Of a stretch of DNA of 64,000 nt, positions 7,016 to 49,603 are shown piece after piece. The stretch is from assembly GCF_964355755.1 (NCBI RefSeq), contig NC_092670.1:8925201-8989200 (forward strand). The letters are read 5' to 3'. The translations under genes and the position numbers were made by a program. The first letter of the stretch is position 1. Each line of letters opens with the position of its first letter. The notes beneath the pieces were generated by a model that was not told where the DNA came from, did not search any database, and saw only the letters and a list, made by a program, of their open reading frames with translations. Source of the DNA: Antedon mediterranea (taxonomy: Eukaryota; Echinodermata; Crinoidea; Comatulida; Antedonidae).

Positions 7016-7047
7016 TATCCTTTTATGATTTTCGCCGATGTCGGCGC

Positions 7048-8125
7048 GGGTGTCACGAAAGCTCAGACCACGAAAGCTCAGACCCCCTAAGACCTAAGAT
7101 CACGAAAGCTAAGACCCAACACCTAAGATTACAAATATTTATCTTTCGCACCTGCCTTGTATTTTAACTCCCAACATTTATTCTGAATACCACACCTTAG
7201 AATTGGCACTTTCATGAAAAAGAATCACATAAAAAGTAACAAATACATTTTTAAATTGATGATTTTACAGACGTTTTTCTCGCACACAAAATGACTAGCC
7301 TACAGTACTACAGTAGGCCTACCCCATGTTCAATGTTTTTGTTTCTATGGAACGTCAAAAGAGCAAAAATTATATAGAGGGCTGAAAACTCTGTGGAGTC
7401 CATCTACAGTGTGGATGGAACAATGTAAAATTAAAATTGTAATGATAATAGTATAATCATGTAAGTACGAAGAAATAAATACTGGCAAATAAATTTTAAT
7501 TTAAAAATCATGATAAGTTTTTTTGTTTCGTTTTCTTTCTGTTTTTATGCTTGTACTATTATTGTTGCTCTTTTGGCGCTCCATGGAAACAAAAACATTG
7601 AGCATGGTGGGAGCTCGAGGAGTTACATTACAGTATACAAAGAAACACATATGTAAAATCATCAATTTAAAGGATTTATTTATTTGTTATTATGTGTTTC
7701 TCCTTCTGAAAGTACTTATAAGTCCTAATTTTAAAGTGTGGTGTTCAGGATAAAGTTAGTCAACAAATTTGGAGTCAAAATACAAGAAAGGCAGGTGCGT
7801 AAGAAAAACATCCTCTGAACCAACACAATGGAGTAAATATATACCAACAAACAACCCGTCAAGTTTGTTTGTTGTAAAGAAAAAATATACATTTACTCAA
7901 CGGGCGAAAATAATGTGAGTTTATCTATGTTTTGCGGTAGTATTAAATTATATTTATGGTAATAAATGAAACCTACTGTGTTTAAAATTATGTATGGATT
8001 AACAAGTATTGTTTTTAATCTGTAGTATATCTTAGTATTTGTAATCTTAGGTGTTGGGTCTTAGCTTAGGTGATCTTAGGTCTTAGGGGGTCTGAGCTTT
8101 CGTGGTCTGAGCTTTCGTGACACCC
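7048..8125. mobile_element. Non-autonomous MULE-type element, 10-bp TSD
   Basis: The element begins GGGTGTCACGAAAGCTCAGA and ends with the complement. The first bases hold a short tandem repeat (CACGAAAGCTCAGAC twice). The flanks 7038-7047 and 8126-8135 are both ATGTCGGCGC, an exact 10-bp target duplication, in the 8-11 bp range known for Mutator-like elements. The arms are long imperfect inverted repeats. No transposase is encoded. Related pieces lie at 10331-10859, 19815-20410 and 20644-21960, and a MULE transposase exon lies 2.7 kb away. Superfamily assignment rests on TSD length and neighbourhood. Confidence 0.8.
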
Positions 8126-8135
8126 ATGTCGGCGC

Positions 8136-9646: not shown

Positions 9647-10305
9647 AAAGAGATTGCTAGTCTCTTGGTTTAGTTCCTTAACTACGATAAAAGACTACAA
9701 CGTAAAATACTCACCATTATAATAGTCTTTGTATGATAATAATGAGTGAGTAGTAATAATATAGGTTTAGTTTCCGTCGTCGACTTCTCAAGTGTCCCTA
9801 AAGCCCGGCGCACACTAGAGCTTTCGGCTGAGCCAACTGGCACGAGTAACACTTGGCTCACTAAAAAATTTGCCGCAAACTATGTTCGCGTTCTATCGGA
9901 CGCACACTAAACGCCTTGAGTACGCGATTTTCTGATTGGATAATTACTTACTACGCTATACAGCACGCGCTGAAATATCATAATAAATCAGAACATGTCA
10001 TGCGCAGTGGAATTTTTTAGTGAGCAGGAAGCTCACGTTCGGCGCACACTTGAGGAAAATGGCACGCGTGCCAAAAAATATTAAACACGATAGATATTTT
10101 CCTCAGCGGCACGCGTGGCCGATTCCTCACGAAATCCCCGGCGCACACTGTGAGGCAAGTGTTACTCGTGGCAGTTGGCTCAGCCGGAAGCTCTAGTGTG
10201 CGCCGGGCTTAACGTACTTGACGTTCCAAGATACACACGGCGGAGCGCGTCCAGGTGTTTAGAGCGACGCGCTCCGCTTAAGCATCTGTGTAGCGGCACT
10301 ACACT
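9647..10305. repeat. Dispersed repeat, second copy, split by a MITE
   Basis: Second copy of the repeat at 1781-2033. Its two halves (9647-9801 and 10210-10305) match the first copy closely. Between them lies a 408-bp insertion with inverted ends. The flanks before AAAGAGATTG and after CACTACA differ between the copies, so these mark the limits of the shared unit. Confidence 0.8.
9802..10209. mobile_element. Harbinger-like MITE, TSD TAA
   Basis: A 408-bp insertion with terminal inverted repeats beginning AGCCCGGCGCACACTAGAGC and continuing with few mismatches for about 55 bp. TAA flanks both sides (9799-9801 and 10210-10212), and the paralogous empty site at 1.94 kb has a single TAA. A 3-bp TWA duplication is the usual signature of PIF/Harbinger elements. 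Inside are further nested inverted motifs (GGCGCACACT, GGCACGCGTG). No coding capacity, so it would need a transposase in trans. Confidence 0.85.
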
Positions 10306-10330: not shown

Positions 10331-10859
10331 GGGGGGGGGGGGGGGAGCTCGAGGAGTTACATTACAGTATACAAAGAAACACATCTGTAAAATCATCAAT
10401 TTAAAGGATTTATTTATTTGTTATTATGTGTTTCTCCTTCTGAAAGTACTTATAAGTCCTAATTTTAATGTGTGGTGTTCAGGATAAAGTTAGTCAACAA
10501 ATTTGGAGTCAAAATACAAGAAAGGCAGGTGCGTAAGAAAAACATCCTCTGAACCAACACAATGGAGTAAATATATACCAACAAACAACCCGTCAAGTTT
10601 GTTTGTTGTAAAGAAAAAATATACATTTACTCAACGGGCGAAAATAATGTGAGTTTATCTATGTTTTGCGGTAGTATTAAATTATATTTATGGTAATAAA
10701 TGAAACCTACTGTGTTTAAAATTATGTATGGATAAACAAGTATTGTTTTTAAGCTGTAGTATATCTTAGTATTTGTAATCTTAGGTGTTGGGTCTTAGCT
10801 TTCGTGATCTTAGGTCTTAGGGGGTCTGAGCTTTCGTGGTCTGAGCTTTCGTGACACCC
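10331..10859. mobile_element. MULE-type half-element bounded by a 15-G run
   Basis: This matches only the right arm of the element at 7048-8125 (its part from GAGCTCGAGGAG to the terminal repeat). The left limit is a run of 15 G (10331-10345); the right limit is GTGACACCC at 10859. The opposite arm and left terminal repeat are absent. The terminal repeat faces, and overlaps, the 3' end of the minus-strand gene, supplying its last codons and stop. A fragment with the same inner limit occurs at 20644-21167. Confidence 0.75.
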
Positions 10860-13377
10860 GGAAACGAGCGGTTATACATTCTCGTTTGATGCAGTAGAAC
10901 TTCCTGGTAAGTTTGGTAGAAACAAGTTTGTTCCCCTTGTTATTTGGATCCGGATATAGCCACTTCTCATCATGGTAAATTGCAATATTATAAGGGATGA
11001 TTTCTTGTCTCCGTGGGAATTCCGTGTGACATTGTCTGCATTCAATGGCTCTAGATTCCTTCATAATAAAACAGACCACAAGAGAATTGTTGTTGTGGTG
11101 AATATCAGTGTAAGGGCGTGTAGTGGCAGTAGTTGTAGCTCTGGGACGATTACGCCATTTGTTCTTGTGTGTTCCTCCTTTTTTACCGCTTGTTTCCGTG
11201 ACCTTTTCGACCAATGCACATTTTGAGACCAGATGCTTTTGTTTGAGGTGATGTAGATGTGACTTTAAAATGCCGTTAATTTCGGCAACACAAATGGAGT
11301 GTTTGCACAAACCATTGTATTTATAACAAGGGCAGGTACAGTTCGCATGATCGGAGTAAACTACACACTCATACATACCGCTCTTGCAACTTTTAGAAGC
11401 GACTAAATATTTTGTCGGACCGTTCGTCAAAGAGGGCATTTTCTGCACGCCGTTTTTGCTGTTGAGAATTTTGGTAGCTTCATCAATGATCGTTTTGATC
11501 AGACCATCAGAGTGACCTGTTATGCTTAACAGAATGGTTAAGTCCTCTGAGAATGTCTTGTATTCATAAAGATCTTTCTGGTTTTGCCCAGTTACAATTA
11601 TGGTTTTCTTTTTGATGGCATCTTGAATTGTCAGCTTGTTGAACTTATCAATATATTGCTGCCTTTCCTCCTTCTCCCATTCAAACCAATCATCAGGCTC
11701 AACTGCGAGGTAGCTTGCTATCTCTGCCAGTTTATATTCGTCACTTAGCCCACAGATTGCCAAACCCAGCTCAATTTGTTGTTGGCGGTCTACTTCCTCC
11801 CAAACATCTCTTACGAATTCCAACTTAGTCATGTTGGTTTTGTTTTTTTCTTTCTTTACAACAGCTTCCTTTTGGCGAGTTAATTTGTTGTTTATGCTCT
11901 CCGATTGGTTGGAGTAGCATCTTTTTGTTTTTCCTGTGTTGTCTGTTGGCATTCCCGCCTTCCGCCTCGCCGATTCTACCATACTGGTTGCCATCATCGT
12001 TTCGTGGGCAGCAAGGTAGGCCCAGAATTGTGGTGATCTGCATCCAGTAACCAATGTTTCATGGTTATCTATTACTTTTTTCGAAGCTGTAAGGCGACTT
12101 TTCAAATCATCACTGTCACTTGCATCTAATATTCCTTCATGTTTACCATCTCCGAAAACCGAATCAATGATTGGTTTCTGTGACTTCTTTTGCACCCCTA
12201 ATCTCTTTAGCTTTTCCACGCAATTTATGCGAAAGTGTCTGAAACACCTTAACCCGGTTGCCCTTTTCATTGATTCTTCTATTGCACCATGTAACGCTGT
12301 TTCTCCATCTGTGATGAATCCCAACCCATCTTCAAGACCAGGACAGTTTCCATTGACAGCAGATGCTATTTTTCTGTATGTTGCTCTGTCCTTACTGCTA
12401 TGAATAGCAGTTGGGCCTAGAAAAACTGGTGCTTCTCCGGTTCTCTTTGTTACCAACATAAGATGTTTATATGTATATGGCGTTACCTCGTATTTTCCGA
12501 AACTGTATGTTGGATCAACACTGAAAGGATGACTAAGCCCTTCTGTTCGGGAAGTACAGAAACGCGAAAGGTCTTGGCACATATGTGGCTTACCCAAAAC
12601 CCAAAGATCCTCTGGAACATCATGGTGTTCTAAAACTATCGGCTCTTCTTTATGCTTTGAGTATAATAGGAGGTCATCCACACTGTCATAATTTAATGAT
12701 TTATTCTTTATATCGTGGAGTTGTTTTCGTGATCTTGGTAGTTGACCTGGATTTCGAGAATTGTGTAAACCTCCAAAGTCGTCAAACACTTTCTTAAATG
12801 CAACTGACACAGACTTAGTGGATACTTCCTTCTTCAAAGCTTCCATTGTGCTTTTTTGGGTTGGATAGTAGGGTGTTCTACCATGCTTCCTATTTCCATG
12901 AGGTTCGACAGTAAACTCTACTGGATCGTCGTTGTTATTACATGTATTGTACTGTAATAAACAGGTTTTGTTCACTATATCATTACTTCCTTTAGTTAAA
13001 AAGAAAATGGAGCGACACAAGCCATGGCAATTTTTCTTAGAGTTCACATGAAGATGATATTCGCTTTCATTTTGAAGCTCTACTTTCTTTTTTTCAAGAA
13101 TATGTATTTTCTCTCCAGTGATGCTTATTGTCCATATACATAAACGGAGCACATTGCGATATATACCATTCATGTCATTTTTTATGTCCTCCCAGTTCTT
13201 GTATCTCGATACATCAATTAAGAAACTCATGTTTCTTCTTACTCTGAGTGGTGTCTTTGTACATTTATTATGCTTGTTATGTCGTAGTATTGTAACTGCC
13301 TCAGTCACAGTGTATCGTTGACGCCTAAATCGTTCAAATATTGGTAATTCATCATCGTTCTTATACGACATCACATC
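10810..13377 (-). CDS. Last exon: MULE-type transposase with SWIM zinc finger
   Basis: This exon has 855 codons, entered in phase 0 through the acceptor TTTGTAG at 13378. Exon residue numbers: catalytic candidates are D288 (in FSVDPTYSFGKY), D357 (in FITDGETAL) and E493 (in NQSESINN). A C-x2-H lies soon after the second Asp (LRCFRHF), as in Mutator-like transposases. SWIM ligands are C680-x-C682-x8-C691-x-H693 (CTCPCYKYNGLCKH). Farther on are a C-x2-C (ECRQCH) and a C-x4-C. All key residues are present and there is no internal stop, so this copy could be active or under constraint. The last ~17 residues (from about RVSRKLRP) are translated from the terminal repeat of the half-element at 10331-10859, so the original C-terminus has been replaced. 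Confidence 0.8.
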   Translation of the reverse strand, partial: DVMSYKNDDELPIFERFRRQRYTVTEAVTILRHNKHNKCTKTPLRVRRNMSFLIDVSRYKNWEDIKNDMNGIYRNVLRLCIWTISITGEKIHILEKKKVELQNESEYHLHVNSKKNCHGLCRSIFFLTKGSNDIVNKTCLLQYNTCNNNDDPVEFTVEPHGNRKHGRTPYYPTQKSTMEALKKEVSTKSVSVAFKKVFDDFGGLHNSRNPGQLPRSRKQLHDIKNKSLNYDSVDDLLLYSKHKEEPIVLEHHDVPEDLWVLGKPHMCQDLSRFCTSRTEGLSHPFSVDPTYSFGKYEVTPYTYKHLMLVTKRTGEAPVFLGPTAIHSSKDRATYRKIASAVNGNCPGLEDGLGFITDGETALHGAIEESMKRATGLRCFRHFRINCVEKLKRLGVQKKSQKPIIDSVFGDGKHEGILDASDSDDLKSRLTASKKVIDNHETLVTGCRSPQFWAYLAAHETMMATSMVESARRKAGMPTDNTGKTKRCYSNQSESINNKLTRQKEAVVKKEKNKTNMTKLEFVRDVWEEVDRQQQIELGLAICGLSDEYKLAEIASYLAVEPDDWFEWEKEERQQYIDKFNKLTIQDAIKKKTIIVTGQNQKDLYEYKTFSEDLTILLSITGHSDGLIKTIIDEATKILNSKNGVQKMPSLTNGPTKYLVASKSCKSGMYECVVYSDHANCTCPCYKYNGLCKHSICVAEINGILKSHLHHLKQKHLVSKCALVEKVTETSGKKGGTHKNKWRNRPRATTTATTRPYTDIHHNNNSLVVCFIMKESRAIECRQCHTEFPRRQEIIPYNIAIYHDEKWLYPDPNNKGNKLVSTKLTRKFYCIKRECITARFRVSRKLRPRKLRPPKT

Positions 13378-16300
13378 CTACAAATAATAAATAAACAGTA
13401 TTATTGTAAGATAATATATAAATTATTTATTTTAAGGCTATACCTATTACACTGCCCTTTGTTTTCAAACGGGGGAGTCGGATAAAGGAAACAAATGCGG
13501 CAGTAAAAAAAATCGTAACGTGTATAGAGCTAAATTTCCTGTTGAATTTAAAGATACTCATTAAGGACCTCATTGGAAACAAGTCCGTAGAGAACTTTTA
13601 TGAGTTATCCTTGGCATCCTTTCTTGTTTTATTCATGGTTTTTTAAATTTGCTATTTTAATTGTTTGTCTGTGATTTTTTTATGTACTGATGCCGAAATA
13701 AATCAAATCAAATCATACTGTATGCCTACTTTTGCTATTTATTGCATACGGTAATCAATTGGTCAATGACAGATTGTAGTTTAGAACTACAGCCAATATT
13801 TAAGGGGTTGTTTGTAATTCCTTGTTATGGCGGTGGAACAAGTGGCTTATATCAGAACTTGTGAATGAATCATATTCACATGAAAATTTAAAAATATCTT
13901 ATAGCTAAAATAGGAAATAAATAAGTAAAATATATATTTTGGACAGTCATCATTCACCTTTTCACCGTATACATCGGATTTAACTTTCGGTACAGGTAAT
14001 TCCATTTCAGTTGTTGTTTTATGACCAGAAATATTTGGTCCTGTAGGCCTACTCGTAACATGTATATTTTTTGAAATAGAAGTAGCGTCATTTGCCTAAA
14101 AAATATAAATTCATTCATGTAAGCTTTATTCCAATCAAACATGTATACTGTAATAATAATTATAAGAAACAAAATTACATTTATTTACAATCGCTTTTTG
14201 CCAGTTCAATGGCAATAACTGTCGATTTGTCTAACTCATGCTTTCTATAACAGGCATGAATTACTTCCAATATTGATTTCACACAGTGTTTATAATTATA
14301 AATAATCATTTTAGTACAGTAATATAGTATACCGTACCTTAGTGTCATATACGTCATCGTCCGAGATTACAATCGTAAAGTCATCATCAGATGAATTAAT
14401 ACCACCTTGTAGGCCTGTACAGCTTGTAAAAGGCGTAGTGTAAGTCAGATTCTATAAAAACAAGAAAAGTTGTCTACATGTCAATTACTGTGTTATACTA
14501 CGATCTATTATTAGAATTGTTATTGTCAAATCAATGACACAGTTGATAACTGGCTTTAAAAATTTACTCATCTCAACTTCACTCGTTGTAGGCGTACCAT
14601 TATAATTACATTTAATTTTGAAAAAGGGAGATGACGACAACATTGTTAATAGGCCTATATATAATGTAATCATACCGTACCTTTTTGTCACAATCAACGT
14701 CATCGTCCATTATCGTAAAGTCATCATCAAATGAACTGATACCACTCATTAGGCCTGTACAGCTTGTAGTAGGCGTAGTATAGTTCGGACACTATAACGG
14801 ACAAAACAAATTCAACACTATGAGTAGGTCTGTATGCAGCTTGTCTAGTTTCAAAAAGGTCATTGTTTTAAATATGACTGTAATATGTATTGTTTATTCC
14901 ACTACGTTACGAATGTAACCGTTCTAACTGAATCTGTAGGTCAGATTATAAAGAATAGATAACGACACAATTTTTAATAAATAAATAAATTATGTAATAA
15001 TACTGTACCTTATTGTCACATTCAACGTCATCATCCGATATTACAATCGTAAAGTCATCATTGAAAATGCCACTCTGTAGGCCTGTACAGCTTGTAGTAT
15101 TCGTAGTGTATACCGGACACTGTAACGAACAAACAGTGCAATTATTCTTCAACAAACTATTGTTAATTATCTTTTACGAGGGTACCATTCTAACTAAATT
15201 CGTAGGCCAGATTATAATAAAGACTCTCTATTGAAATTTAGAGGAAATGAAACAATTTTTATTTAATGTAATCATACCGTACCTTTTTGTCACAATCAAT
15301 GTCATCGTCCGAGATTATCGTAAAGTCATCATCAAATGAACTGATACCACTCTGTAGGCCGGAAAAGCTTGTAGTAGGCGTAGTATAGTTCTGACACTAT
15401 AACGGACAAAACAGACGTTCAATGTAATATTAAATTGTTTTAAAATTTAAAAAAAAATTTTATTATAGTGAACTCAGCAGTTTAATTAACTTTCGGTAAT
15501 AAAGGTAGGGTAAATTTTCAGAAGTATGTAACAGAGTCAGGTCTAATGCCCGCTCCCAAAACTTGTATTTGTAATTTATTACCTATAGTCCTAATTTGGC
15601 TTTTAAAGTCTAAGTGATTTTTCCGCCCGTCTAGATTATACTATACAACATTTTTAATGACAGTATAAACAAAAAACACAGGCTAATTTAGATTTTTTAA
15701 GCTGTCACTGCTGTGCCGTTTTAAAAAGACTCTTCCTTCTATTCCACCCTTATGGATCACTTTATTTTAAAAACATAAATCTACAAATGATTGTCATTTA
15801 TCATGAGGTTTTGAAGTGAAAAGGAAGAACTTGAACTTGAGAGTAGACCTGTAACAGACAGTGTATGGCCGTGATGCTCATCGACTTCTTAACCTTTCTC
15901 TTATTATAAATGCCTATACACGTTAACGAATCTGGGGGGAAATGTATACCTTGCTCTCTGAGAGTACACTTGTAGGCATCTCATTTGTTGTTTCTTCACT
16001 GGATGAATCACTGGGGTCACTAATATAGACACTCGCAGAAGAACTTGGCATCTGTAAGTTATTTATGAAAATAGATAACTGTAACAGCACCATGAATCAT
16101 TGCACATTCACGAACCATAGCTATTTTATCTACTGCTTCCATAGCCTAATTAGAAAATAAATACTCATCATTGATTTCTTTTAAAGGTTTAACATGGATG
16201 ACATAATATTAATATAATTATACCTCTGAATGCATAGTTTTGACATGTTTATACTTAGGAGAACTGGATATGGACGGGCTCTGAAGAAACGAATGTCTGG

Positions 16301-17349
16301 AATGATAAATGAGAAATTATAAAAACGGGTACACAAAATATTCATCCGTACACAGTTTAGAGCAAATTAAAAAATATATGCCTTGCTCAAAACATTATTT
16401 TTCCATATTCTCGTGCTGCAGTATTTTATTAGCCGTACTTGTTTTGAGACTCTACATAATTAAGTTATATATTGAGCTATAATTTTTTTTTACAGTACAG
16501 TAAGTACTATAATATAATTATTGAAAGTAGTAACTTTACTTTCCCCCTTATGAAAACGGAGACCCAAGGCCAATTATGTATAGCTTTACCATACTTAATT
16601 TATTATCATTATCATCATAAGGTAAACTAAATCATAAACATAATCAATTACCTTGATACCTGCTCCTTCACTAGAGAGAAAGATTGTAGTTGGTCTACGT
16701 CAACACCACTATGTCTCATCCGTTTCCAGACCCAAGAGCATAGCTCATTAACGGAAGTTACGTCGGTCGATGGGAGCACCTTTATTATTCCTTGGCCGTT
16801 TCCACCTAGTTGTTTTTCAACTGGGTGGGTATCAATTATAAAATAATTTCTGCGAGTGCAACCAATTATAATTATATACCCGCCACAGGTATATAGTGCT
16901 ACATTTAGCCTTTCATTTTCATTAGGATTCAGTTCGATTACAGCCTTTACAAGAGCATTCCGTCCTTCGTCTGTATATACACGTTCCTGTACAATCATCT
17001 CCTCTGTAATACTATAGGGCGAAATCAGGTTTCCATTTCTTAAGACCGTGTAGGCTTCCAGGACATCATAGAATGAAGCAATATTACGCAAATAGTTGAA
17101 TAGTCTTGGTGAATCGATAATAATATGCTCAATTGCCGATTTAATTTCTTCACCAAAAAATGTATTCCAGTTCTTGATGAGCCTATCAGCGATTATCAAC
17201 CCTAAGAAAGCACATGCATTTGTTGCATCATTTGGAATGGCTAGGCCTTCCACTGGGTCTTTGCAAATCAAACTACCTTGCTCAACTATTGTGGAGAGAT
17301 CAAACTCCTCAACAGCACTAGTTTGGCTGTACCTTAATGGGATATCCAT
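10810..17349 (-). CDS. Nine-exon protease-like / SIM-repeat / MULE transposase-SWIM gene
   Basis: I propose exons (5' to 3') 17349-16652, 16296-16224, 16051-15950, 15396-15283, 15119-15009, 14791-14681, 14451-14338, 14095-13958 and 13377-10810. Every junction has GT...AG. Exon 1 ends with two spare bases, exon 2 begins with one, and all later introns are phase 0, giving one open frame of about 1342 residues. In order the protein holds a Cys...Asp-x-His protease-like domain, a Ser-rich linker, four copies of a SIM-like exon, a short linker, and a MULE (D, D, E) transposase with SWIM zinc finger. The true start could lie in an upstream exon, because an acceptor-like TTATAG lies just before the ATG. 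It may be the gene of an autonomous MULE or a domesticated derivative; no matching terminal repeats flank it in the expected orientation. The consistent phases make the model strong; splicing itself is unproven. Confidence 0.75.
13378..13957. other. Last intron, with a LINE 3'-tail fragment
   Basis: A 580-bp intron of the minus-strand gene. At about 13563-13722 (+ strand) it holds a sequence resembling the 3' end of a CR1/L2-type LINE: a short coding-like tail, a T-rich stretch, then AATAAATCAAATCAAATC, a short-repeat tail in place of poly-A. A similar AAATC tail begins a block near 19379. Confidence 0.45.
13958..14095 (-). CDS. Exon 8: linker between SIM-like repeats and transposase
   Basis: 138 bp, 46 codons, phase 0 at both ends (acceptor TTTTTTAG, donor AAAAG/GTGAAT). 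It reads ANDATSISKNIHVTSRPTGP and on to VKSDVYGEK. Polar and probably disordered; no domain recognised. It joins the repeat exons to the transposase exon in frame. Confidence 0.6.
14338..14451 (-). CDS. Exon 7: SIM-like repeat exon, copy 4
   Basis: 38 codons, phase 0-0, from NLTYTTPFTSCTG to SDDDVYDTK. The core DDDFTIVISDDDV is a short hydrophobic strand inside acidic residues, the pattern of SUMO-interacting motifs. It differs from its sisters at the start (N for C) and near the end (YDT for ECD), so it is probably an older or freer copy. Confidence 0.65.
14681..14791 (-). CDS. Exon 6: SIM-like repeat exon, copy 3 (core shortened)
   Basis: 37 codons, phase 0-0, CPNYTTPTTSCTG to DVDCDKK. The core reads FTIMDDDVD: the residues equal to I-S are missing by an in-frame deletion, so the hydrophobic strand is shortened and SUMO binding, if it occurs in the sisters, may be lost here. 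Otherwise close to copies 1 and 2, including the acceptor CCGTTATAG and donor AAAAAG/GTACGG. Confidence 0.65.
15009..15119 (-). CDS. Exon 5: SIM-like repeat exon, copy 2
   Basis: 37 codons, phase 0-0, CPVYTTNTTSCTG to DVECDNK. The core FTIVISDDDVEC is the fullest match to a SIM: four aliphatic/Thr positions followed by Ser and three Asp. Flanking intron sequence is also similar to that of the neighbours, so exon and intron were duplicated together. Confidence 0.65.
15283..15396 (-). CDS. Exon 4: SIM-like repeat exon, copy 1
   Basis: 38 codons, phase 0-0, CQNYTTPTTSFSG to DIDCDKK. The core is FTIISDDDID. Because length and phase allow insertion or loss without changing the frame, copy number can vary freely. 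No similar exon is seen in the 553-bp intron upstream. Confidence 0.65.
15950..16051 (-). CDS. Exon 3: Ser/acidic linker with a possible further SIM
   Basis: 34 codons, phase 0-0, MPSSSASVYISDPSDSSSEE to SVLSESK. The segment VYIS followed by acidic and Ser residues resembles a phosphorylation-type SIM. The first codon is ATG directly after the acceptor CTTACAG, so a shorter protein lacking the protease-like exon could in principle start here. Confidence 0.6.
16059..16145 (-). CDS. Possible alternative terminal exon
   Basis: After an acceptor CTAATTAG (just above 16145) a phase-0 frame reads AMEAVDKIAMVRECAMIHGA and ends in TAA at 16059-16061, only 7 bp from exon 3. If exon 2 splices here, the product would be the protease-like domain plus linker, without SIM-like repeats or transposase. 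The sequence looks protein-like, but nothing else supports it. Confidence 0.3.
   Translation of the reverse strand, partial: AMEAVDKIAMVRECAMIHGAVTVIYFHK
16224..16296 (-). CDS. Exon 2: short Ser/Lys linker
   Basis: 73 bp (1 + 24 codons): HSFLQSPSISSSPKYKHVKT then MHSE. The acceptor is CATTCCAG and the donor GAG/GTATAA. The one-base start fits exactly the two spare bases (AG) left by exon 1 to make an Arg codon; frame 0 of this exon would stop at once. This fit is the main evidence that the protease-like exon and the downstream exons are one gene. Confidence 0.65.
16652..17349 (-). CDS. Exon 1: cysteine-protease-like domain (Cys / Asp-x-His)
   Basis: About 232 residues. C46 lies in NACAFLGLIIAD at the start of a hydrophobic helix, with N40 and N44 before it as possible oxyanion residues. 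D173-x-H175 lie in NYFIIDTHPV after a strand (GGYIIIIGCTRR). The order Cys, long spacer, then Asp-x-His on one strand is that described for the herpesvirus tegument-type ubiquitin-specific proteases (MEROPS C76); papain-like proteases in general have a separate Asp/Asn. Substrate is unknown; deubiquitinase or SUMO protease activity is inference. Upstream (17370-17570) a short Gln/Ala frame starting ATGGTGATGCAACAACAAC and ending at a GTAAGG donor might be a 5' exon, but its phase does not fit the ATG at 17349. Confidence 0.65.
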
Positions 17350-18612: not shown

Positions 18613-19044
18613 GGCCTTGTTTTTCCAAGAATCATGATAAAAACAATAAACGCTCGGAATAATCCATTCTTACAAATCGAAACATAATTATGAATTTTTA
18701 AATAACATGGAATTATTAACAAAAATTGTTTACTAAGTTTTTATATAATTGATTTCAACCAATCACACAACTATCTATTTAATAAAAAGCATATCATAAT
18801 ATTATTTTAGCAAAAGTCTTCTTTAATGATGCCCATGAAATACCATTGTAGTATAATGGACGAACATTGACATACAATTTTTAGTATTTTAGTAATTACT
18901 TTAGATTTGGAGCTGTGATAATATGAAATAAACAAAAAAGCTAATAATACATAAACAATAAATGATTATGATAATAAAGTGTCTTTCATTAACCCTTTGC
19001 ATTACAACAAGTTAAAGGTGTAAACAGGGTTCCCAGATAAGCTG

Positions 19045-19300
19045 GCCCCGATTCGAAACGGGGTATTGGTGGTGCAATAACTTTCATAACATTCTCCCAA
19101 CTGTACCAGATCAAATCTTTCTCACCATCAGGCCATATCCAATACAGTCAACTTCAGTGTTAGTGTTTATTATCTGTGTGACAACACCTGGATATTGCAT
19201 AGTACCATAATTGACTACTACCCAGTCATTGCACTTCCAAGGTAGGACATCATCCACCAATGGTGCTTCATTAGACAAATCAGGAACTATAGGTTCTTAG
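19045..19300 (-). pseudogene. Decayed exon encoding a W..V.Y...YPG..WxxD.iWY-type domain
   Basis: Read on the minus strand: PDLSNEAPLVDDVLPWKCND, then WVVVNYGTMQYPGVVTQIIN, a frameshift near the IGYG residues, then PDGEKDLIWYSWENVMKVIA. The pattern (W-V-x-V-x-Y-x-x-x-x-Y-P-G ... D-x-x-W-Y ... V-I-x-P-P) is a small beta-barrel-like domain that I associate with C-terminal ends of transposon-derived animal proteins. The frameshift shows decay. No partner exons found. Confidence 0.4.
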
Positions 19301-19814: not shown

Positions 19815-20410
19815 AAAGTTTTTTGTTTCGTTTTCTTTCCCGTTTTTATACTTGTACTATTATTTTTTGCTCTTTTGGCGCTCCATAGAAACGAATATTG
19901 AGCATGGAGAAGAGTTAAGAGTATACAAAGAAACACGTCTGAAAAATCATCAATTTAAAGGATTTATTTATTTGTTTGTATGTGTTTCTCCTTCTTAAAG
20001 TACTTATAAGTCTTAATTTTAAAGTGTGGTATTCAGGATAAAGTTAGTTAACAAATTTGGAGTCAAAATTACAAGGCAGGTGCGAAAGAAAAACATCCTC
20101 CAAACCAACACAATGGAGTAAATATATACCAACAAACAACCCGTCAAATTTGTTTGTTGTAAAGAAAAAATATATATTTACTCAACGGGCGAAAATAATG
20201 TGAGTTTATCTATGTTTTGCGGTAAGTATTTAATTATATTTATGGTAGTAAATGAAACCTACTGTGTTTAAAATTATGTATGGATAAACAAGTATTGTTT
20301 TTAAGCTGTAGTATATCTTAGAATCTGTAATCTTAGTCTTAGGTCTTAGCTTTCGTGATCTTAGGTCTTAGGGGGTCTGAGCTTTCGTGGTCTGAGGTTT
20401 CGTGACACCC
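19815..20410 (+). mobile_element. MULE-type element fragment, right arm
   Basis: Matches the right half of the element at 7048-8125 from TTTTTTGTTTCGTTTTC to the terminal GTGACACCC, with about 10% differences and small deletions. The left arm is missing. It is older than the fragment at 10331. Confidence 0.7.
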
Positions 20411-20643: not shown

Positions 20644-21960
20644 GGGTGTCACGAAAGCTCAGACCACGAAAGCTCAGACCCCCTAAGACCTAAGATCACG
20701 AAAGCTAAGACCCAACACCTAAGATTACAAATACTAAGATATACTACAGCTTAAAAACAATACTTGTTTATCCATACATAATTTTAAACACAGTAGGTTT
20801 CATTTATTACCATAAATATAATTTAATACTACCGCAAAACATAGATAAACTCACATTATTTTCGCCCGTTGAGTAAATGTATATTTTTTCTTTACAACAA
20901 ACAAACTTGACGGGTTGTTTGTTGGTATATATTTACTCCATTGTGTTGGTTCAGAGGATGTTTTTCTTACGCACCTGCCTTTCTTGTATTTTGACTCCAA
21001 ATTTGTTGACTAACTTTATCCTGAACACCACACATTAAAATTAGGACTTATAAGTACTTTCAGAAGGAGAAACACATAATAACAAATAAATAAATCCTTT
21101 AAATTGATGATTTTACAGATGTGTTTCTTTGTATACTGTAATGTAACTCCTCGAGCTCCCCCCATCCTGAATACCACAGCTTAGAATTAGTAGGCCTACT
21201 TTAATGAAGAAAAATCACATAAAAGTAACAATAAATCCATTAAATTGGTGATTTTACAGACGTTGTTTTTCTCGCATTTCGCACAATCAATGTTCAATAT
21301 TTTGGTTTCTATGGAACGCCAAAAGAGCAAAATTAATTAGAGGGCTAAAAACTCTGTGGAATCCATTTATATTTAACGCATTATTTGGTGAAAATCAAGT
21401 ACAATTTCAATAGATTTTGTCACTGTCAGTAAGGAAAAATGTTACTGTTGATAATGTACACGGTTTCGTTAACCTTTTAAAGAATAAAATAGAAAAATTC
21501 ATCATAATATCCTTAGTAGGATGTCCTAGGTCTAGACTAGGTAGTGATGTTGATTTAGGATCGATTATTATTCTTTGAAGAAAACAGAACAGTATCAGCA
21601 GTAACATATTACAACATTTTTATTGACAAATTAACAAATATATTGAAATAAAACGTGTTTTTCACCAATAAATGCATGAGAAATTGACGCATTCTACTGA
21701 GTTTTAGTCCTCTATTATCGTTGCTCTTTTGGCGCTCCATAGAAACAAAAATATTGAACATTGAATAAGTGAAATTCGCGAACAGTGTGCGAGAAACACG
21801 CCTGTAAAATCATTAATTTAAGGATTTATTTGTTACTTTTTATGTGATTCTTTCATTAAAGTACTCATGAGGTATACTTCTAAGGTGTGGTATTCACACG
21901 ATAAAGTTAGTTATCAAATTTGGAGTAAAAATACAAGCGAAGGAAACTAGCGCCACGTTT
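20644..21960 (-). mobile_element. MULE-type element fragments, chimeric
   Basis: 20644-21167 is an inverted half-element from the terminal repeat (GGGTGTCACGAAAGC) to a C-run beside GAGCTC, nearly identical to 10331-10859. It joins directly to an older fragment (21168-21360) matching positions about 7180-7400 of the complete element, followed by unrelated sequence. At about 21709-21960 a piece of the opposite arm appears in reverse orientation, without its end. The simplest reading is a young half-element placed in or beside an old damaged copy. Confidence 0.65.
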
Positions 21961-29205: not shown

Positions 29206-29957
29206 TTCGAACGTAATCCGTTCTAACGAATTAGTAATTCGTTTGAACGGATTAATAATCTGTTCAAACGAATTAGTAATCCGTTCAAACGAATTGCAAC
29301 ATATACAACAAGTGCCATTTAAAGTATATGTTGTAATTCGTTTAAACGGATTACTAATCCGTTCAAACGAATTACTAATTTGTTTAAACGGATTACTAAT
29401 TTGTTCAAACGAATTACTAATTCGTTCAAACGAATTACTAATTTGTTTAAACGGATTACTAATTTGTTTAAACGAATTAATAATTTGTTTAAACGGATTA
29501 CTAATTCGTTCAAACGAATTAGTAATCCGTTTAAACAAATTAGTAATTTGTTTAAACAAATTAATAATTTGTTTAAACAAATTAATAATTTGTTTAAACA
29601 AATTAATAATTTGTTTAAACGGATTACTAATTTGTTCAAACGAATTACTAATTTGTTTAAACGAATTAGTAATTCGTTTAAACAAATTACTAATTCGTTT
29701 AAACAAATTAGTAATTCGTTCAAACGGATTAGTAATTCGTTTAAACGAATTAGTAATTTGTTTAAACGAATTACTAATTCGTTTAAACAAATTAGTAATT
29801 CGTTTAAACGAATTACTAATCCGTTTGAACAAATTAGTAATCCGTTTAAACGAATTAGTAATTCGTTCAAACAAATTACTAATTTGATTAAACAAATTAC
29901 TAATTCGTTTAAACGGATTACTATCAGATTAGTAATTCGTTCGAACGGAATATTCAC
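29206..29957. repeat. Left terminal array of 21-bp palindromic units
   Basis: Units of 21 bp such as CGAATTACTAATTCGTTCAAA alternate in both orientations (variants with CCG, TTG or TCG, and GTTTAAAC or GTTCAAAC). Because 21 is a multiple of three and stops are rare in either orientation, long open frames with seven-residue periods (LFKRITN, LIRLNEL) appear on both strands; they are by-products. A non-array segment with ACATATACAACAAGTGCC interrupts it near 29295-29335. Confidence 0.85.
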
Positions 29958-31057
29958 TCATTAGTTGAGGGCGCAATTTACCAAACTTTTGACACTACTT
30001 TTACACCACCACCAGTACCGTACGTAGTACCGCGTGTTGGTGTTGGTTGTTCTTATTAAAGTTGTTTGGTAAGTGTATTATTATTATTGTTATTATTAGT
30101 GTTATTGTTATGAAACTATTAACGAATTAAATGTTACAGCATAGTAGCCTAGGTGTTAATTTTTTTCACGCTGCTGCTCTAGCCCGCTACGTCCCATTAG
30201 GACTACTCAATCAGAAGCTAAAGCAGGCAGCAGTTATAGTATCTAAGGATGACAGAAATGCGAAAATGGAAACTCCACTTTAATTTATTGATTCCAGCTG
30301 CTACAACCAAAAAACGTCTGGGAAAAGAGTCTATTAAGACATGTCATGCTAAAATTACAAATCCCAAAGCATTTCTTGTATTTGACTATAATACTGACTT
30401 TTGACTGTAATTCACTGTCAGATATTCATTGAATTATTATCAAAACAGTCCATTAAAGTTTGTGTTTGAAATAGGATACTTCACACTTGAAATATCTAGG
30501 TTGATGAAGTGACCTCCAGACTTGACCTTAGCAATAAAAAATTAACTAAAGTGACAGAAATTGAGTATTCACTTCTGTAACCAAAAAATAATATTTATTC
30601 ACATATAAAAAGAGAAAAGAAACCACAATTTAAGTATTTGTTGCTTTAAATTACCCTTTTTTCAGGGAAAATAACTATTATGTGACAATAAAATGACACA
30701 TTCAAAAACAAATTTGAAATAAAAAATATGTGTCAATAAGCGAGCAGCGTTTTTTGTAAGGAATATTTCTTGTTTATTCAACTTCTCACTAACTCTGTTA
30801 GTGAAGAATCTGGACCAACACCTTTAAAACGGTCCAGTCCCAACTGTGCGTGTTATGCCCAACTCAAGCTCGACAGTATAGACCTGTTGTTTATTTGACT
30901 AGTAGTAACAGTTATCCTTACAGGCCTATGTCTAAAAAATTGTAACAATAAACAATAATAATTGATTTAGATAATGAAAATAACCGTAATCGCTAACCAT
31001 TTTGTTTGTTTATTTGATAGAATCTTGATTAATTCGTATGCGTTCAAGGACACAAGT

Positions 31058-32302
31058 ATGGAAAATAGAAATCTTATTCGATTATATTTCCATTTTGGTT
31101 TAAATTATGAAGAGATAATTGAACGCATGTTTATGGAACATGACGTCCTGTTGAGTGTGCGAACTCTAAAGCGAAGACTTAAGGAAATGAGTCTTTTTCG
31201 GAGAAAATATCATTCGGATATACTAGATGTTGCGATGTTTATTGAGGATCAAATAAATGCATCAGGTCAATTACACGGGTACAGATGGATGCACATGCGA
31301 TGTAAACAAAATGGCTTAAACGTTGACAAGGAGACGGTCCGTATCATTTTGGGTGTTTTAGATCCGGATGGAGTTGCTCTAAGGAGAAGAAAACGACTAC
31401 AGAGGCGACGTTATTTGGTACCAGGCTCGAACTTCATGTGGCATATAGACTCGTATGATAAACTGAAACCTTATGGTATATGCATCAATGGATGTATTGA
31501 TGGTTTTTCTAGACGTGTAATATGGTTAGAGGCTAACTCAACTAGTAGTGATCCTAAGGTAATAGCCGGATATTATATACAAGCTGTTAGAAATTATATG
31601 GGTTGTCCCAAATTTATACGAACCGACTTTGGAACAGAAAATTCAGTTGTCGGTTCGATGCAACAGTTTCTATCGAAAGAAAATAGCAGTTTCATCCGTG
31701 GTACAAGTCAACATAATCAAAGAATAGAGAGTTGGTGGAGTATTCTTCGAAAACACTGTGCACAGTTCTGGATGAATGTATTTAAACAATTAAAAAATGA
31801 TGGAAGGTTTGATGGTGGCCACATCGACAAGTCGTTGATACAGTTTTGCTTCATGAAACTTATTCAGGTAAATTCATACAATTCGAAACAAACAATTGTT
31901 CATTCATGATTTTTAAACTAGCAGATAATTAACATAAACTAGTCAAGTGAATATTTGGTTTATTATTCTTCTCAGAAAGAACTTGACATAATTGTAAACG
32001 AATGGAATGCCCACCGTATTGCAAAATCAAGAAACTGTCACGGGCCTTTTGGAAGGCCCGAAATGATGTATACCATGCCTCATCTTTATGGAGGAGAAGA
32101 ATTCATTGTAGGTGTTGAAGCTGATGAAATTGATGTATGTGGTACTGAATGTACTTTTAAATGTCGAATTCCTTGTGATAAAGATGTCTTTGACCTGTCT
32201 TCAATTCTGATAGAAGAAAGGCAATTAACAATACCAACAAGTTGTGACGAAGGATTGCAACTGTACAACAGTTTAAGAAACATACTTTTAGAAATTGTTT
32301 GA
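31058..32302 (+). CDS. DDE integrase-type transposase, two exons
   Basis: Exon 1 is 31058-31867, exon 2 31977-32302. The join ATTCAG/GTAAAT ... TTCTCAG/AAAGAA is phase 0. The ATG at 31058 (MENRNLIRLYFHFGLNYEEI) is chosen as the first that starts a helical N-terminal domain; the frame is open to 30974, but the extra residues look unlike protein. The catalytic triad candidates are D131 (WHIDSYDKL), D190 (IRTDFGTENS) and E224 (QHNQRIESWW), with 33 residues between the last two, close to the DD35E spacing of retroviral/IS3 integrases. The N-terminus has a helix-turn-helix-like part (LSVRTLKRRLKEM). Exon 2 adds NEWNAHRIAKSRN and a polar tail. Both exons are intact, so this copy may encode a working protein. 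Confidence 0.8.
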
Positions 32303-38404: not shown

Positions 38405-40709
38405 TTAAGCAATGTCCATTACCCATACTGAACTTGAAAGTATTTGCTCAAATTCTTTCTTCAAATCCAGAAAATTCTCATAGTTTTTTGGTACCTGAAG
38501 TTCATTACCGCAAGTATGTGCAATTGGTCTTCTTTCAAAACCATCCAACTCACTGAATGACACATTAATATTTTCTGTGATCACATCAGATCCGGTACAA
38601 AATCTTAAAAAGTTTTTAAGTAATTTATCATCTAGAGAGCGTACAAAACGTCGCAAGTATGTGGCCGTTGAACTCTCATTTACCGACATCAGATCTGGGA
38701 ATTTCATCAATGAAACAACTTTTTTGGTGTTTGGCCGAAGGTCTTCATACATTTTGAAGAAAGATTCCTTTGTGAAGTTATCCTTTAAAGGAGAAAGAGC
38801 GGGACGCATAGCATCAGCTATAAACATTGGTTTCTGTATTATCTCTTTGTGGCCTAACTCGTTTACTATTCTTAATATGTTTTCTTTTGACACCATCTTT
38901 CTGCAATCGTAGCTTCCTAGTATGTCTATTAGTTCACTGGTATCGTCTGGAAACTCTTTCATCGCTGTTTGTATCACCTCTCTTTCCGACTCCGGTACAA
39001 ACTCCAAAAATTAGCTGCTTGTATCTATGTCAATACACGAGCCAAATATGGCTGTCGCAATGAAGGGAGGGGCAAAAGAAATTGGAAAAAAGTGCTTTTC
39101 CAACCAACCTTTTGTGATTATTCGCCCTACAGCTCTCCATTCAGTTTCAGAATAATCATGCCTGATTACCGGGACTTTAAATGTGTCGCCAATTGTCAGT
39201 CGCTGAAAAAAATCTTGCCAGAACTGTGTAAGAGCATCTTTAAATACACCACTCCCAGAACCTGCCTCGATATCTCCGTTTGGTAAAATCATGTGAAAGG
39301 CCAAGTGCATGTTCATAATGTTTTCATTTGTGAAAACGTTTATCATGTCTTCTATAACGAAGCTTCTCCGGATAAGAACTATTTCAACAACTTCATTAGG
39401 AATTGTATCATCTAAGTAAATTGGGTTATCATCTTCAAGTGTTGGGCCAAATAAAATAGTTGGGGTGTCTGGTTGCTGAAGAGGAGACTGTGGAGATTGT
39501 GGAATTTCAACGTTAGTGGCAATATCAATAAATGGAAAGTCAATATTATCTGAGTGATAAAGACTATTCTTTGAAAGGTTGGCTGTTGAATGTTCAAGTC
39601 CAACAAATGGAATAGCAAAATCATCAAATTCTGATTCTTGATCATCATACTCATTGCTTGCACTGCCATTTTCATTGGTTTTCGTTTTAAGAGATGTTTT
39701 AAGATAGAATCTTAAGGTAGCCATTTTTGATTCCTCATAGAGTTGACCGACTGTTGTATACTGATCTAATTTCAAATGTCGAAAATCACAAACTTCACAG
39801 TCAAATGATTCTAATGGCCCTTTTGAAGAAATGCCATTTTTAAAAAACAGGTCTTTAGCAACTTCCAGAAGTTGACAAGGTGTAGTAGACTTTGCAATTG
39901 CCAATTGGCGCGTGCCCCCTCCATTTTGCTTTCTTACTTGTTTCAATTTGCCTGTAGTTGGGCATTTATTTAGCCACCCTACATCGATCCTTCTCTCGGC
40001 TTTGCGGGCATTTTTATTGCCTTTAAGACGTACTGACCTAGTTTCGGACTTACTGTCACTTTCTTCGTCATCACTGCTGCTTGTGCTTTCTTCTTTTCCT
40101 CTTTTTAATTTAAGCTTATTCCGTAACCTACATAGTATGGTATTTTTTTTTGGTGAAGACTTTTTTTTATCTTCGCAAAAGGATCTTATTGCGATTCTAT
40201 CACCCACCAATGGAATGAAGTTACTTAATTCCTCATCTGTCATCAGCCCAATGACTTGTTTGTTTATCTGCAATAAAATTATGTAAAAGTAAATTAAAGT
40301 ATTACATTTCAAAATATGAATGGAAAAAGCTATGTTGCAGTCACAGTTTCATTTTATAATTGATAATTTTATGATTTGTTATCCATCAACAAATTATTAT
40401 ATATAATTACATTATATCAATTATTATAACTAGGGCTAGGCTACAAATTAGCTGTACCGCTGTCATTTAATACTCAATTGATAATTAATAACAATAAATA
40501 ATCTGAAATTTATTTATTTTATTGTATAACATAAAATAATATATAATATTGTATAATTATTTCTTTGACAATTTTCATCCTACATAAGGATACCCATGAT
40601 ATCACTGCATCAGCCTAGGGCCTACCTTTTCATTTTTCATCCGTTCTACTACTTCATCCTCAATACCACGACTGGCCATATACTCAAATACATCTTCTTT
40701 ATTCGTCAT
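38405..40709 (-). CDS. SAM-like/HECT-like E3 ligase gene in the transposon, one internal stop
   Basis: Exon 1 is 40709-40626 (28 codons, MTNKEDVFEYMASRGIEDEV...), exon 2 40267-38405; the donor AAAAG/GTAGGC and acceptor TTTTATTGCAG join in phase 0. Residues ~1-65 look like a SAM-type helical domain (VIGLMTDEELSNF, LVGDRIAI). Then come a basic, Ser/acid-rich stretch and a conserved block (RRIDVGWLN, NGGGTRQL, LFFKNGISS, TTVGQLYEESK). The C-terminal part is HECT-like, ending PIAHTCGNELQVPKNY with the thioester-type C614 of about 648. An in-frame TAA at codon 447 (39011-39013) interrupts the HECT-like part; the frame is otherwise open on both sides. The copy is either recently broken or depends on readthrough. 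Similar proteins are annotated in animals as G2E3-like ligases; function here is inferred. Confidence 0.75.
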
Positions 40710-41261: not shown

Positions 41262-42075
41262 AATACGAATTAGCAATCCGTTTAAACAAATTAATAATTC
41301 GTTTAAACGAATTACTAATTCGTTTAAACGGATTACTAATTTGTTCAAACGGATTAGTAATCCGTTTGAACAAATTAGTAATCCGTTTAAACGAATTAGC
41401 AATCCGTTTAAACAAATTAATAATTCGTTTAAACGAATTAGTAATTCGTTTAAACGGATTACTAATCCGTTCAAACGAATTACTAATTTGCTTAAACGGA
41501 TTACTAATTCGTTTGAACGAATTACTAATTCGTTTAAACGAATTACTAATTTGTTTAAACGAATTAGTAATCCGTTTAAACAAATTACTAATCCGTTTGA
41601 ACGGATTACTAATTCGTTTGAACAGATTATTAATCTGTTTAAACAAATTAGTAATTTGTTCAAACGGATTAGTAATCCGTTTAATCAAATTATTAATTTG
41701 TTCAAACGAATTACTAATTCGTTTAAACGAATTAGTAATTCGTTTAAACAAATTAGTAATTCGTTTGAACGAATTAGTAATCCGTTTAAACAAATTATTA
41801 ATTCGTTTAAACAAATTAGTAATCCGTTTAAACAAATTAGTAATTCGTTTGAACGAATTAATAATTCGTTTGAACAAATTAGTAATCCGTTTAAACAAAT
41901 TAGTAATTTGTTTGAACGGATTAGTAATCCGTTTAAACGAATTACAACATATACTTTAAATGGCACTTGTTGTATATGTTGCAATTCGTTTGAACGGATT
42001 ACTAATTCGTTTGAACAGATTATTAATCCGTTCAAACGAATTACTAATTCGTTAGAACGGATTACGTTCGAAAAA
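41262..42075. repeat. Right terminal array of 21-bp palindromic units
   Basis: Counterpart of 29206-29957 in inverse orientation, about 38 units, with the same interruption (CAACATATACTTTAAATGGC). The long open frames on both strands here are periodic by-products. It ends with TTCGAAAAACATATACTTCA and the terminal motif, which is cut by the nested element. Confidence 0.85.
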
Positions 42076-42101
42076 CATATACTTCAAATGGCATTAATGG
42101 G

Positions 42102-43558
42102 TACGAAAGCCCATTAATGCCATTTGAAGTATATGTTTTTCGAACGTAATCCGTTCTAACGAATTAGTAATTCGTTTGAACGGATTAATAATCTGTTCAA
42201 ACGAATTAGTAATTCGTTCAAACGAATTGCAACATATACAACAAGTGCCATTTAAAGTATATGTTGTAATTCGTTTAAACGGATTACTAATCCGTTCAAA
42301 CGAATTACTAATTTGTTTAAACGGATTACTAATTTGTTCAAACGAATTACTAATTCGTTCAAACGAATTAATAATTTGTTTAAACGGATTACTAATTCGT
42401 TCAAACGAATTAGTAATCCGTTTAAACAAATTAGTAATTTGTTTAAACAAATTAATAATTTGTTTAAACAAATTAATAATTTGTTTAAACAAATTAATAA
42501 TTTGTTTAAACGGATTACTAATCTGTTTGAACGAATTAGTAATTCGTTTGAACGAATTAGTAATCCGTTTAAACAAATTAGTAATTTGTTTAAACAAATT
42601 AATAATTTGTTTAAACGGATTACTAATTCGTTTAAACGAATTAGTAATTCGTTTAAACAGATTAGTAATCCGTTTAAACAAATTACTAATCCGTTTGGAC
42701 GGATTCCTAATTCGTTTGAACAGATTATTAATCTGTTTAAACAAATTAGTAATTCGTTTGAACGGATTAGTAATCTGTTCAAACGAATTAGTAATCCGTT
42801 CAAACCAATTGCAACATATACAACAAGTGCCATTTAAAGAATATGTTGTAATTCGTTTGAACGGATTACTAATCTGTTCAAACGAATTACTAATTTGTTT
42901 AAACAGATTAATAATCTGTTAAAACGAATTAGGAATCCGTTCAAACGGATTAGTAATTTGTTTAAACGGATTACTAATTTGTTCAAACGAATTACTAATT
43001 CGTTCTAACGAATTAGTAATCCGTTTGAACAAATTATTAATTTGTTTAAACAAATTAATAATTTGTTTAAACGGATTACTAATTCGTTCAAACGAATTAC
43101 TAATTTGTTCAAACAGATTAATAATCCGTTTAAACAAATTATTAATTTGTTTAAACAAATTACTAATTCGTTTAAACGGATTACTAATTCGTTTGAACGA
43201 ATTAGTAATTCGTTTGAACGGATTACTAATCCGTTTAAACAAATTAGTAATTCGTTTGAACGAATTAGTAATCCGTTTAAACAAATTAGTAATTCGTTTG
43301 AACGGATTATTAATCCGTTTGAACAAATTAGTAATCCGTTTAAACAAATTAGTAATTTGTTTGAACGGATTAGTAATCCGTTCAAACGAATTACAACATA
43401 TACTTTAAATGGCACTTGTTGTATATGTTGCAATTTGTTTGAACGGATTACTAATTCGTTTGAACAGATTATTAATCCGTTCAAACGAATTACTAATTCG
43501 TTATAACGGATTACGTTCGAAAAACATATACTTAAAATGGCATTAATGGGCTTTCGTA
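42102..43558. mobile_element. Nested miniature copy of the same transposon
   Basis: A 1457-bp element begins TACGAAAGCCCATTAATGCC and ends GGCATTAATGGGCTTTCGTA. It lies inside the last bases of the larger element's right end. TTAATGGG flanks both sides (42094-42101 and 43559-43566), after which the missing outer end CTTTCGTA follows. It consists only of two terminal arrays joined at about 42808-42856, so it is a non-autonomous foldback derivative. The flanking duplication is 8 bp (or 6 bp with two extra T at the right end), against 6 bp for the outer element. Confidence 0.8.
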
Positions 43559-49300: not shown

Positions 49301-49600
49301 AATAACTACTAAACCAACATTTTAACTTTCTACCTTTAATGCATACATGATAAACATAGCGCTGCTCAGTACAAATTTGTTGTGAACTTTTTACTCAGAA
49401 TTAGTTGTAAGTACTCCATGAAATTAACCAAAATTGAATTCAAATATTTTTCCAATTTGAAGGCCTATAGTAATAAGCATTTCTTATCATTTACATGAAA
49501 GTTAACCATGCAGAATCTCCATGGTTAAACCAATAAAGCATATAAGCAAATCAAGTATAATATTTGTCAACAACACATCTTTCATTGTTGGTAAACAAAT
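46302..49600. other. No gene recognised
   Basis: Several short open frames (for example 46631-46870, 48213-48407, 48631-48846) have no domain, codon or splice support. Two small palindromes occur: 47263-47372, with CCAGACGGAG and its complement about 100 bp apart, and the perfect 18-bp palindrome CACCAAGAATTCTTGGTG at 47391-47408. Confidence 0.4.
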
Positions 49601-49603
49601 ATG

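Follow-up and report, generated by a model that had tools for sequence, protein, structure and literature searches.

Introduction

Viral tegument-like deubiquitinases (VTDs) occur in Helitron transposons, where ubiquitin activity has been measured, and the tegument enzyme of herpesviruses has been proposed to stem from a transposon (Erven et al. 2022, PMC9741609). That paper also mentions several Cnidaria in which VTDs are fused to transposon-associated domains, which it does not name; the terms MULE (Mutator-like element), Mutator and kinase have 0 occurrences each in its main text. Here we describe a gene from a 64,000-nucleotide stretch of the genome of the crinoid Antedon mediterranea (assembly GCF_964355755.1, contig NC_092670.1, positions 8,925,201 to 8,989,200; hereafter the window, numbered from its first letter), in which a VTD-like domain, a set of acidic repeats and a MULE transposase are predicted to be joined in one frame. 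It differs from the VTDs of Helitrons and herpesviruses in its setting, a MULE with a DDE transposase, and in the acidic repeats that follow the domain; from the VTDs of solved structure it differs in that its first exon has no detectable sequence similarity to them.

Plant transposons offer a second comparison. The Kaonashi elements (KI-MULE/KIU) share with the window gene the presence of a cysteine protease of a ubiquitin-like system on a Mutator-type element (PMC2528002 and PMC13317346). KI-MULEs carry an Ulp1 domain, whereas the window gene has a VTD-like predicted fold; their ULP domain lies in reverse orientation to mudrA (both orientations being found in other plants), whereas the window domain is in frame with the MULE transposase. 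Rice proteins that combine a CACTA transposase (Tnp2) with an ULP1 domain are a precedent for a transposase–protease fusion (PMC2528002). In plants, VANDAL elements that carry KIU lower the methylation of copies related to them, an effect in which the part played by Ulp1 is stated to be unknown (PMC13317346). For animals, Dupeyron et al. (2019, PMC6446971) tabulate the Hydra MULE MuDR-6_HM with an 'Ovarian Tumour Gene', which makes it a cnidarian MULE with a deubiquitinase-class domain; that domain is OTU and the window's is VTD-like, a comparison by table listing. Terms for proteases, ubiquitin or OTU are absent from the main text of an arthropod MULE paper (PMC13359780). Among the titles and abstract openings listed by our literature searches, none described a VTD in a MULE, most subscription papers and Repbase lying outside that scope. 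An earlier reading of this DNA (the original prediction) had likened the gene to the plant Ulp1 MULEs; the protease-like domain joined to a MULE transposase stands as a prediction, but its type is revised here to VTD-like and, because the protease is nearest the VTDs, the VTD-carrying Helitrons are an equally close parallel.

Gene model

The gene lies on the minus strand, from 17349 to 10810, and its nine exons are given below with the basis of each.

16652..17349, minus strand: exon 1, cysteine-protease-like domain (frame, relatives, predicted fold, conserved residues)
16224..16296, minus strand: exon 2, with a 2+1 junction to exon 1 (splice signals and frame alone)
15950..16051, minus strand: exon 3, Ser/Glu-rich, VYISDPSD inside (splice signals and frame alone)
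15283..15396, minus strand: exon 4, acidic repeat unit DDDFTIISDDD (frame, coding constraint)
15009..15119, minus strand: exon 5, acidic repeat unit DDFTIVISDDD (frame, coding constraint)
14681..14791, minus strand: exon 6, acidic repeat unit DDDFTIMDDD (frame, coding constraint)
14338..14451, minus strand: exon 7, acidic repeat unit DDDFTIVISDDD (frame, coding constraint)
13958..14095, minus strand: exon 8, linker (splice signals and frame alone)
10810..13377, minus strand: exon 9, MULE transposase with a SWIM-type finger, its last codons coming from an inserted terminal repeat (relatives, alignment, Pfam)

Joined, these exons read as one frame of 1342 codons and a stop. GT-AG borders are present at 8/8 junctions, of which that between exons 1 and 2 is 2+1 and the remaining seven are phase 0; the chain originally proposed was thus reproduced in full when recomputed. 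Exon 1 has 0 in-frame stops, its other two frames having 26 and 23, and exon 9 has its terminal stop only, against 56 and 72 in the other frames. Because both exons combine an open frame with database relatives, chance is no serious explanation for them. The reading-frame chain is real and the gene unusual.

The 5′ end of the model is uncertain. The first Met of exon 1 sits where the frame of its relatives continues upstream into a kinase, and an acceptor-like AG lies two bases upstream of the ATG; on both counts, exon 1 may once have been an internal exon.

A VTD-like domain in exon 1

The original prediction had taken exon 1 for a protease-like domain with a Cys and an Asp-x-His, and had proposed a Foldseek comparison as a check on its fold. 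The AlphaFold2 model of exon 1 (predicted local distance difference test, pLDDT, 89) is papain-like, and the predicted fold agrees with that assignment. The closest folds are VTDs (PDB 8ADD, herpesvirus M48), which rank first in both structure comparisons of the model against the PDB, with a Foldseek template-modelling score of about 0.5.

The putative catalytic residues are C46 and D173-T-H175; the domain also contains E116-E117. Conservation was assessed in a 49-row alignment, consisting of the window and those 48 of 58 VTD relatives with a long enough matched stretch, P0020 being cut to its VTD part; the 58 include the weak matches P0074 (E 0.82) and P0075 (E 2.2). C46, D173 and H175 are kept in 37/39, 40/43 and 41/43 of the rows with a residue there. 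VTD deubiquitinases are not known to have an aromatic gatekeeper right after the catalytic His. The exon-1 family agrees with them in this respect: Pro follows His175 in the window, and F, Y or W occurs at that position in 0 of the 34 rows, out of 49, with a residue.

With a limit of E 10, the database search with exon 1 yielded 57 proteins, 55 of which have E values up to 1.1e-4. It is about 50% identical to its nearest relatives (P0021, 51%), falling to 38% for P0063, 35% for P0043, 34% for P0033 and 27% for P0071. No Pfam Peptidase C48 (Ulp1) or OTU match was found in exon 1 up to E 10, in a scan that also lists no herpes tegument model, and neither class appears among the best 50 rows of each PDB fold comparison, a result that excludes neither. 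On the strength of the model, we predict that exon 1 encodes a papain-like domain nearest by fold to VTDs; it would be deubiquitinase-like, with ubiquitin as a putative substrate.

A MULE transposase in exon 9

The joined protein has 18 database relatives, all of them found through exon 9, with 43-56% identity. Seventeen of these (P0020 was left out) were aligned with exon 9, giving 18 rows including the window. D288, D357 and E493, which we take to be catalytic, and C680, C682, C691 and H693, which are presumably zinc-binding, are invariant in 18/18 rows. Pfam models for MULE and SWIM match 14/18 rows each at E up to 1, with best values of 7.9e-5 and 4.9e-4. The invariant residues and the Pfam matches in the relatives support the assignment of exon 9 to the MULE family with a SWIM-type finger, as first suggested. 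In scans of viral contigs and of bacterial and archaeal genome contigs, the transposase alignment found no relatives. The hosts named for the fetched relatives are all cnidarian: Actinostola, Desmophyllum, Acropora and Porites.

Acidic repeat exons

Between the two domains, exons 4-7 each carry a repeat unit with the core DDDFTIVISDDD or near it. They are mutually 82-94% identical, compared with 47-66% for the introns that follow them, and their lengths (114, 111, 111 and 114) differ in threes. The ratio of nonsynonymous to synonymous rates (dN/dS) is 0.29-0.56 in 5/6 pairs; the sixth, exon 4 with exon 6, has 1 synonymous and 7 nonsynonymous changes, with a ratio of 1.70. From this pattern, the four repeat exons look coding.

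The suggestion that the repeats resemble SUMO-interacting motifs (SIMs) is weakened by our scans, which used three strict patterns (a, b and r) and a relaxed pattern devised post hoc from the repeats. The strict patterns gave 0 matches in exons 2-8, although the reversed pattern r matches exon 9 twice (shuffle P 0.002). The relaxed pattern gave 4 matches in exons 2-8 for a shuffle mean of 0.19, all four being duplicates of one exon; its frequency in the 75 fetched proteins is 0.37 per 1000 residues, and it matches P0020 once (shuffle P 0.12). An earlier SIM rule found nothing in the window and one stretch of P0029, in which the later patterns have no match. The tail of P0032 (Acropora) contains YIDLTQQE and HIDLSEDE, SIM-like by eye, where 0 patterns matched. 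SUMO binding by the repeats is possible.

Domain order in relatives

The joining of a protease-like domain and a transposase in one gene recurs in P0020, a gene model from the sea anemone Actinostola, which has a VTD-like domain, an acidic stretch and a MULE part in the same order as the window. Its residues 303-540 match exon 1 and slightly past it, residues 574-909 match the transposase, and the 33 residues between the two parts include 14 Asp/Glu. Among P0003-P0020, a VTD is present only in P0020. A kinase precedes the VTD in this protein (Pfam 2.4e-21); its last part is HECT-like by eye, with no HECT match there in Pfam.

A kinase ahead of a homologous VTD, not found in the window, distinguishes P0020, P0071, P0021, P0033, P0043 and P0063 from the window gene, and among the kinase–VTD proteins fetched only P0020 has a MULE part. 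A kinase profile matches 25/58 VTD relatives; it was built from 13 of the same relatives and is not independent of them. With a limit of E 1, the Pfam kinase model finds 8 of the 38 sequences in the structure alignment; it also matches P0020 and P0063. The weak IRAK4 rows of one sequence-profile search against the PDB fall in the kinase columns of the query alignment. A tblastn search of the window with 13 of the 75 fetched proteins found no convincing kinase (best E 0.52, for a match spanning into the VTD), and the kinase profile reached a best E of 2 there.

The kinase–VTD fusion is itself recurrent, being seen in the cnidarian proteins P0020 and P0071, in P0033 (whose cluster has 99 members), P0043, P0063 and others. 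The original prediction had anticipated neither this kinase of the relatives nor the interruption of the gene at its 3′ end.

In a quick tree of the 49 rows, the window VTD is placed apart from P0020, in a group of 4 rows (Shimodaira–Hasegawa-like approximate likelihood-ratio test, SH-aLRT, 96) whose other members are P0022, P0052 and P0021, the last with a kinase end. The window branch is long, and its position in the tree is unsure.

An interrupted 3′ end

The gene is surrounded by members of one terminal-repeat family:

10340..10859, plus strand: inverted arm of 520 bp, its terminus CGTGACACCC at 10859 inside exon 9 (repeat comparison)
20644..21163, minus strand: partner arm, inverted and 100% identical, its terminus GGGTGTCACG at 20644 (repeat comparison)
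19819..20410, plus strand: related long terminal repeat, 94% identical to the left arm over 497 columns, a candidate for the right end of the element that carries the gene (repeat comparison)
7048..8125, plus strand: non-autonomous element of 1.08 kb with the same terminal-repeat family (inverted ends, flanking repeat)

The last of these has the ends GGGTGTCACG...CGTGACACCC and is flanked by a 10-bp direct repeat, ATGTCGGCGC, at 7038-7047 and 8126-8135; its right half is 98.3-98.7% identical to the arms 10340-10859 and 20644-21163. The flanking repeat falls within the target-duplication range of 8-11 bp in those MULE rows that give a length (PMC6446971).

In 16/17 aligned relatives, 32-41 residues follow the RF of RFPY (P0010 ends early). 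The window leaves the relatives exactly at this RF, that is at 10860/10859, the terminus of the arm, and the last codons and stop of the gene lie in the 520-bp arm. The window copy is, by this alignment, without about 35 C-terminal residues, and because its last codons and stop lie inside a repeat whose terminus interrupts the transposase, its C-terminus is not native. Searches of the window with the ends of 5/16 relatives as queries did not recover the missing residues at any other place (best other match E 0.15). The gene had been proposed to be either an autonomous transposon or a domesticated gene; the terminal repeat that interrupts its 3′ end argues against this copy being an autonomous transposon that is still intact, and against an obvious case of domestication. 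The arms may have arisen from a nested insertion accompanied by loss, from a rearrangement caused by reversed ends or from an assembly error. Positions 10340 and 21163 were tried as true ends and rejected: no target duplication was seen by eye, and the repeat family runs past that point in two other copies.

Two further features lie close by. A copy of the repeat that also occurs at 1782-2029 is split by an insert of 410 bp (9801-10210), which has inverted ends of 61 bp (95%). At 19000-19300 on the minus strand, upstream of the gene, there is a broken coding-like stretch (...DWVVVNYGTMQYPGVVTQI... by eye), which may belong to this or another element.

Interpretation

We consider it probable, though well short of certain, that this is the protein gene of an animal MULE family, expressed as a single transcript encoding a VTD-type domain, an acidic repeat tether and a DDE/SWIM transposase. 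In such a protein, the VTD-type enzyme would act in cis, clearing ubiquitin or a related modifier off the transposase or off host factors at the element ends, and this could shield the transposition complex from degradation or ubiquitin-dependent silencing; in an intact element, nearby silencing factors would be possible substrates too. The ubiquitin activity measured for Helitron VTDs (PMC9741609) and the KIU-carrying VANDAL elements of plants (PMC13317346) serve as precedents. The acidic repeats would act as a flexible tether, perhaps docking on SUMO or on basic partners. A terminal repeat of a related kind would have cut the window copy later, so that a full transposase is probably not produced from it any more.

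Several observations weigh against this interpretation. Exons 2, 3 and 8 are predicted from sequence, and so is the fusion. No VTD chain appeared in three PDB sequence-profile searches at E up to 10, and exon 1 has no Pfam match up to E 10; the VTD link is structural. The window's own Pfam values for MULE (0.092) and SWIM (0.034) are below cut-off, and because the AlphaFold2 model of exon 9 is poor (pLDDT 57.4, predicted template-modelling score 0.31), there is no fold support for the transposase. An exon of the exon-9 type could be translated alone, as P0004 and P0006 suggest, and the large clusters of relatives in the joined-protein search (154 and 45 members) may be a product of repeated sampling and not of multiple copies within a genome. 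P0020 is a single, automatically generated gene model; since it has a kinase and an extra C-terminal part and is without the first half of the transposase, it may join neighbours. Finally, the termini of both 520-bp arms face inward to the gene, so that the arms are not simple element ends, and the gene's own left terminus was not found in the window.

A more elaborate form of the single-gene reading follows the order of P0020. It proposes an animal MULE family in which a kinase, a herpes-tegument-like deubiquitinase, an acidic and perhaps SUMO-docking tether and a DDE transposase form one polypeptide, so that the transposase would edit its own phosphorylation and ubiquitin marks or those of silencing factors. 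The copy in the window would then represent a kinase-less branch. We think this unlikely, though a serious contender.

We are similarly tentative about a Pack-MULE-like capture, in which the VTD exon would have been taken from a kinase–VTD gene independently of the Actinostola case and carried as passenger DNA, an event that is compatible with a single transcript. The grouping of the window VTD with P0021, P0022 and P0052 and not with P0020, the failure to find a kinase in the window, and the start of exon 1 at what is by eye the end of the kinase part in P0021 all point this way. Against it, exon 1 is open and retains its conserved residues even though its closest relatives are no more than about 50% identical to it; the same domain order also occurs in a second species, and the tree placement that favours capture rests on a long and uncertainly placed branch.

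It is improbable, in our estimate, that the gene consists of two adjacent transcription units merged only on paper, namely a VTD gene derived from a kinase–VTD gene and a MULE transposase gene. A kinase precedes the VTD in 25/26 of the relatives with at least 45 residues ahead of it (the exception is P0048; the profile comes from 13 of these proteins), VTD relatives and exon-9 relatives came as separate proteins except for P0020, as single-exon calls would give, and the initial Met of P0004 and P0006 aligns with the third residue of exon 9 in the window. Two units would leave unexplained, however, why all eight GT-AG junctions preserve one frame, why the repeat exons between the two domains are under coding-type constraint, and why the Actinostola model links the same domains in the same order.

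No better placed is the proposal that exon 1 encodes, in place of a deubiquitinase, a YopT/AvrPphB-type protease or one acting on ubiquitin-like modifiers (UFSP2/ATG4-like). The first rank of VTDs in both structure comparisons argues against it, and for YopT-type enzymes so does the conserved Asp two residues ahead of the His, in contrast to the Cys-His-Asp order described for them in PMC9741609.

We regard as very unlikely a domesticated host gene, in which a former transposase and its VTD serve a cellular role: the long open frame with intact conserved residues would suit it, and VTD domestication is published (PMC9741609), but the terminal repeat takes off about 35 conserved C-terminal residues and the gene is set among repeats of one MULE-like family.

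Other features of the window

Further repeats and coding stretches lie elsewhere. A 21-bp unit (ACGAATTAGTAATTCGTTTAA type) forms long tandem arrays at 29213-29923 and 41265-43393; it is self-complementary for the most part and can be read openly in several frames. A satellite array with 12 copies of a 157-bp unit (96% matches) lies at 49599-51510. On the plus strand, an integrase-core frame (rva_4, 7.5e-30) followed by a second open stretch at 30971-32302 is possibly another mobile element, and 61330-62334 contains a SCAN-like domain (3.1e-9) accompanied by a weak match to a CCHC knuckle (0.068), reminiscent of Gag-like proteins. On the minus strand, 38405-40348 holds two neighbouring reading frames with one stop between them, the downstream of which (38405-39010) matches part of HECT (Pfam 4.7e-7).

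Conclusions

If the fusion is real, this gene would encode a MULE transposase with a covalently attached deubiquitinase-like domain, and would add a further transposon setting to those already known, namely Helitrons with VTD and OTU domains, and plant MULEs and CACTA elements with Ulp1. The question of why transposons repeatedly acquire such enzymes would become testable, with point mutants separating the two activities of one polypeptide. Because Erven et al. propose a transposon source for it, such a fusion would also bear on the origin of the herpesvirus tegument enzyme.

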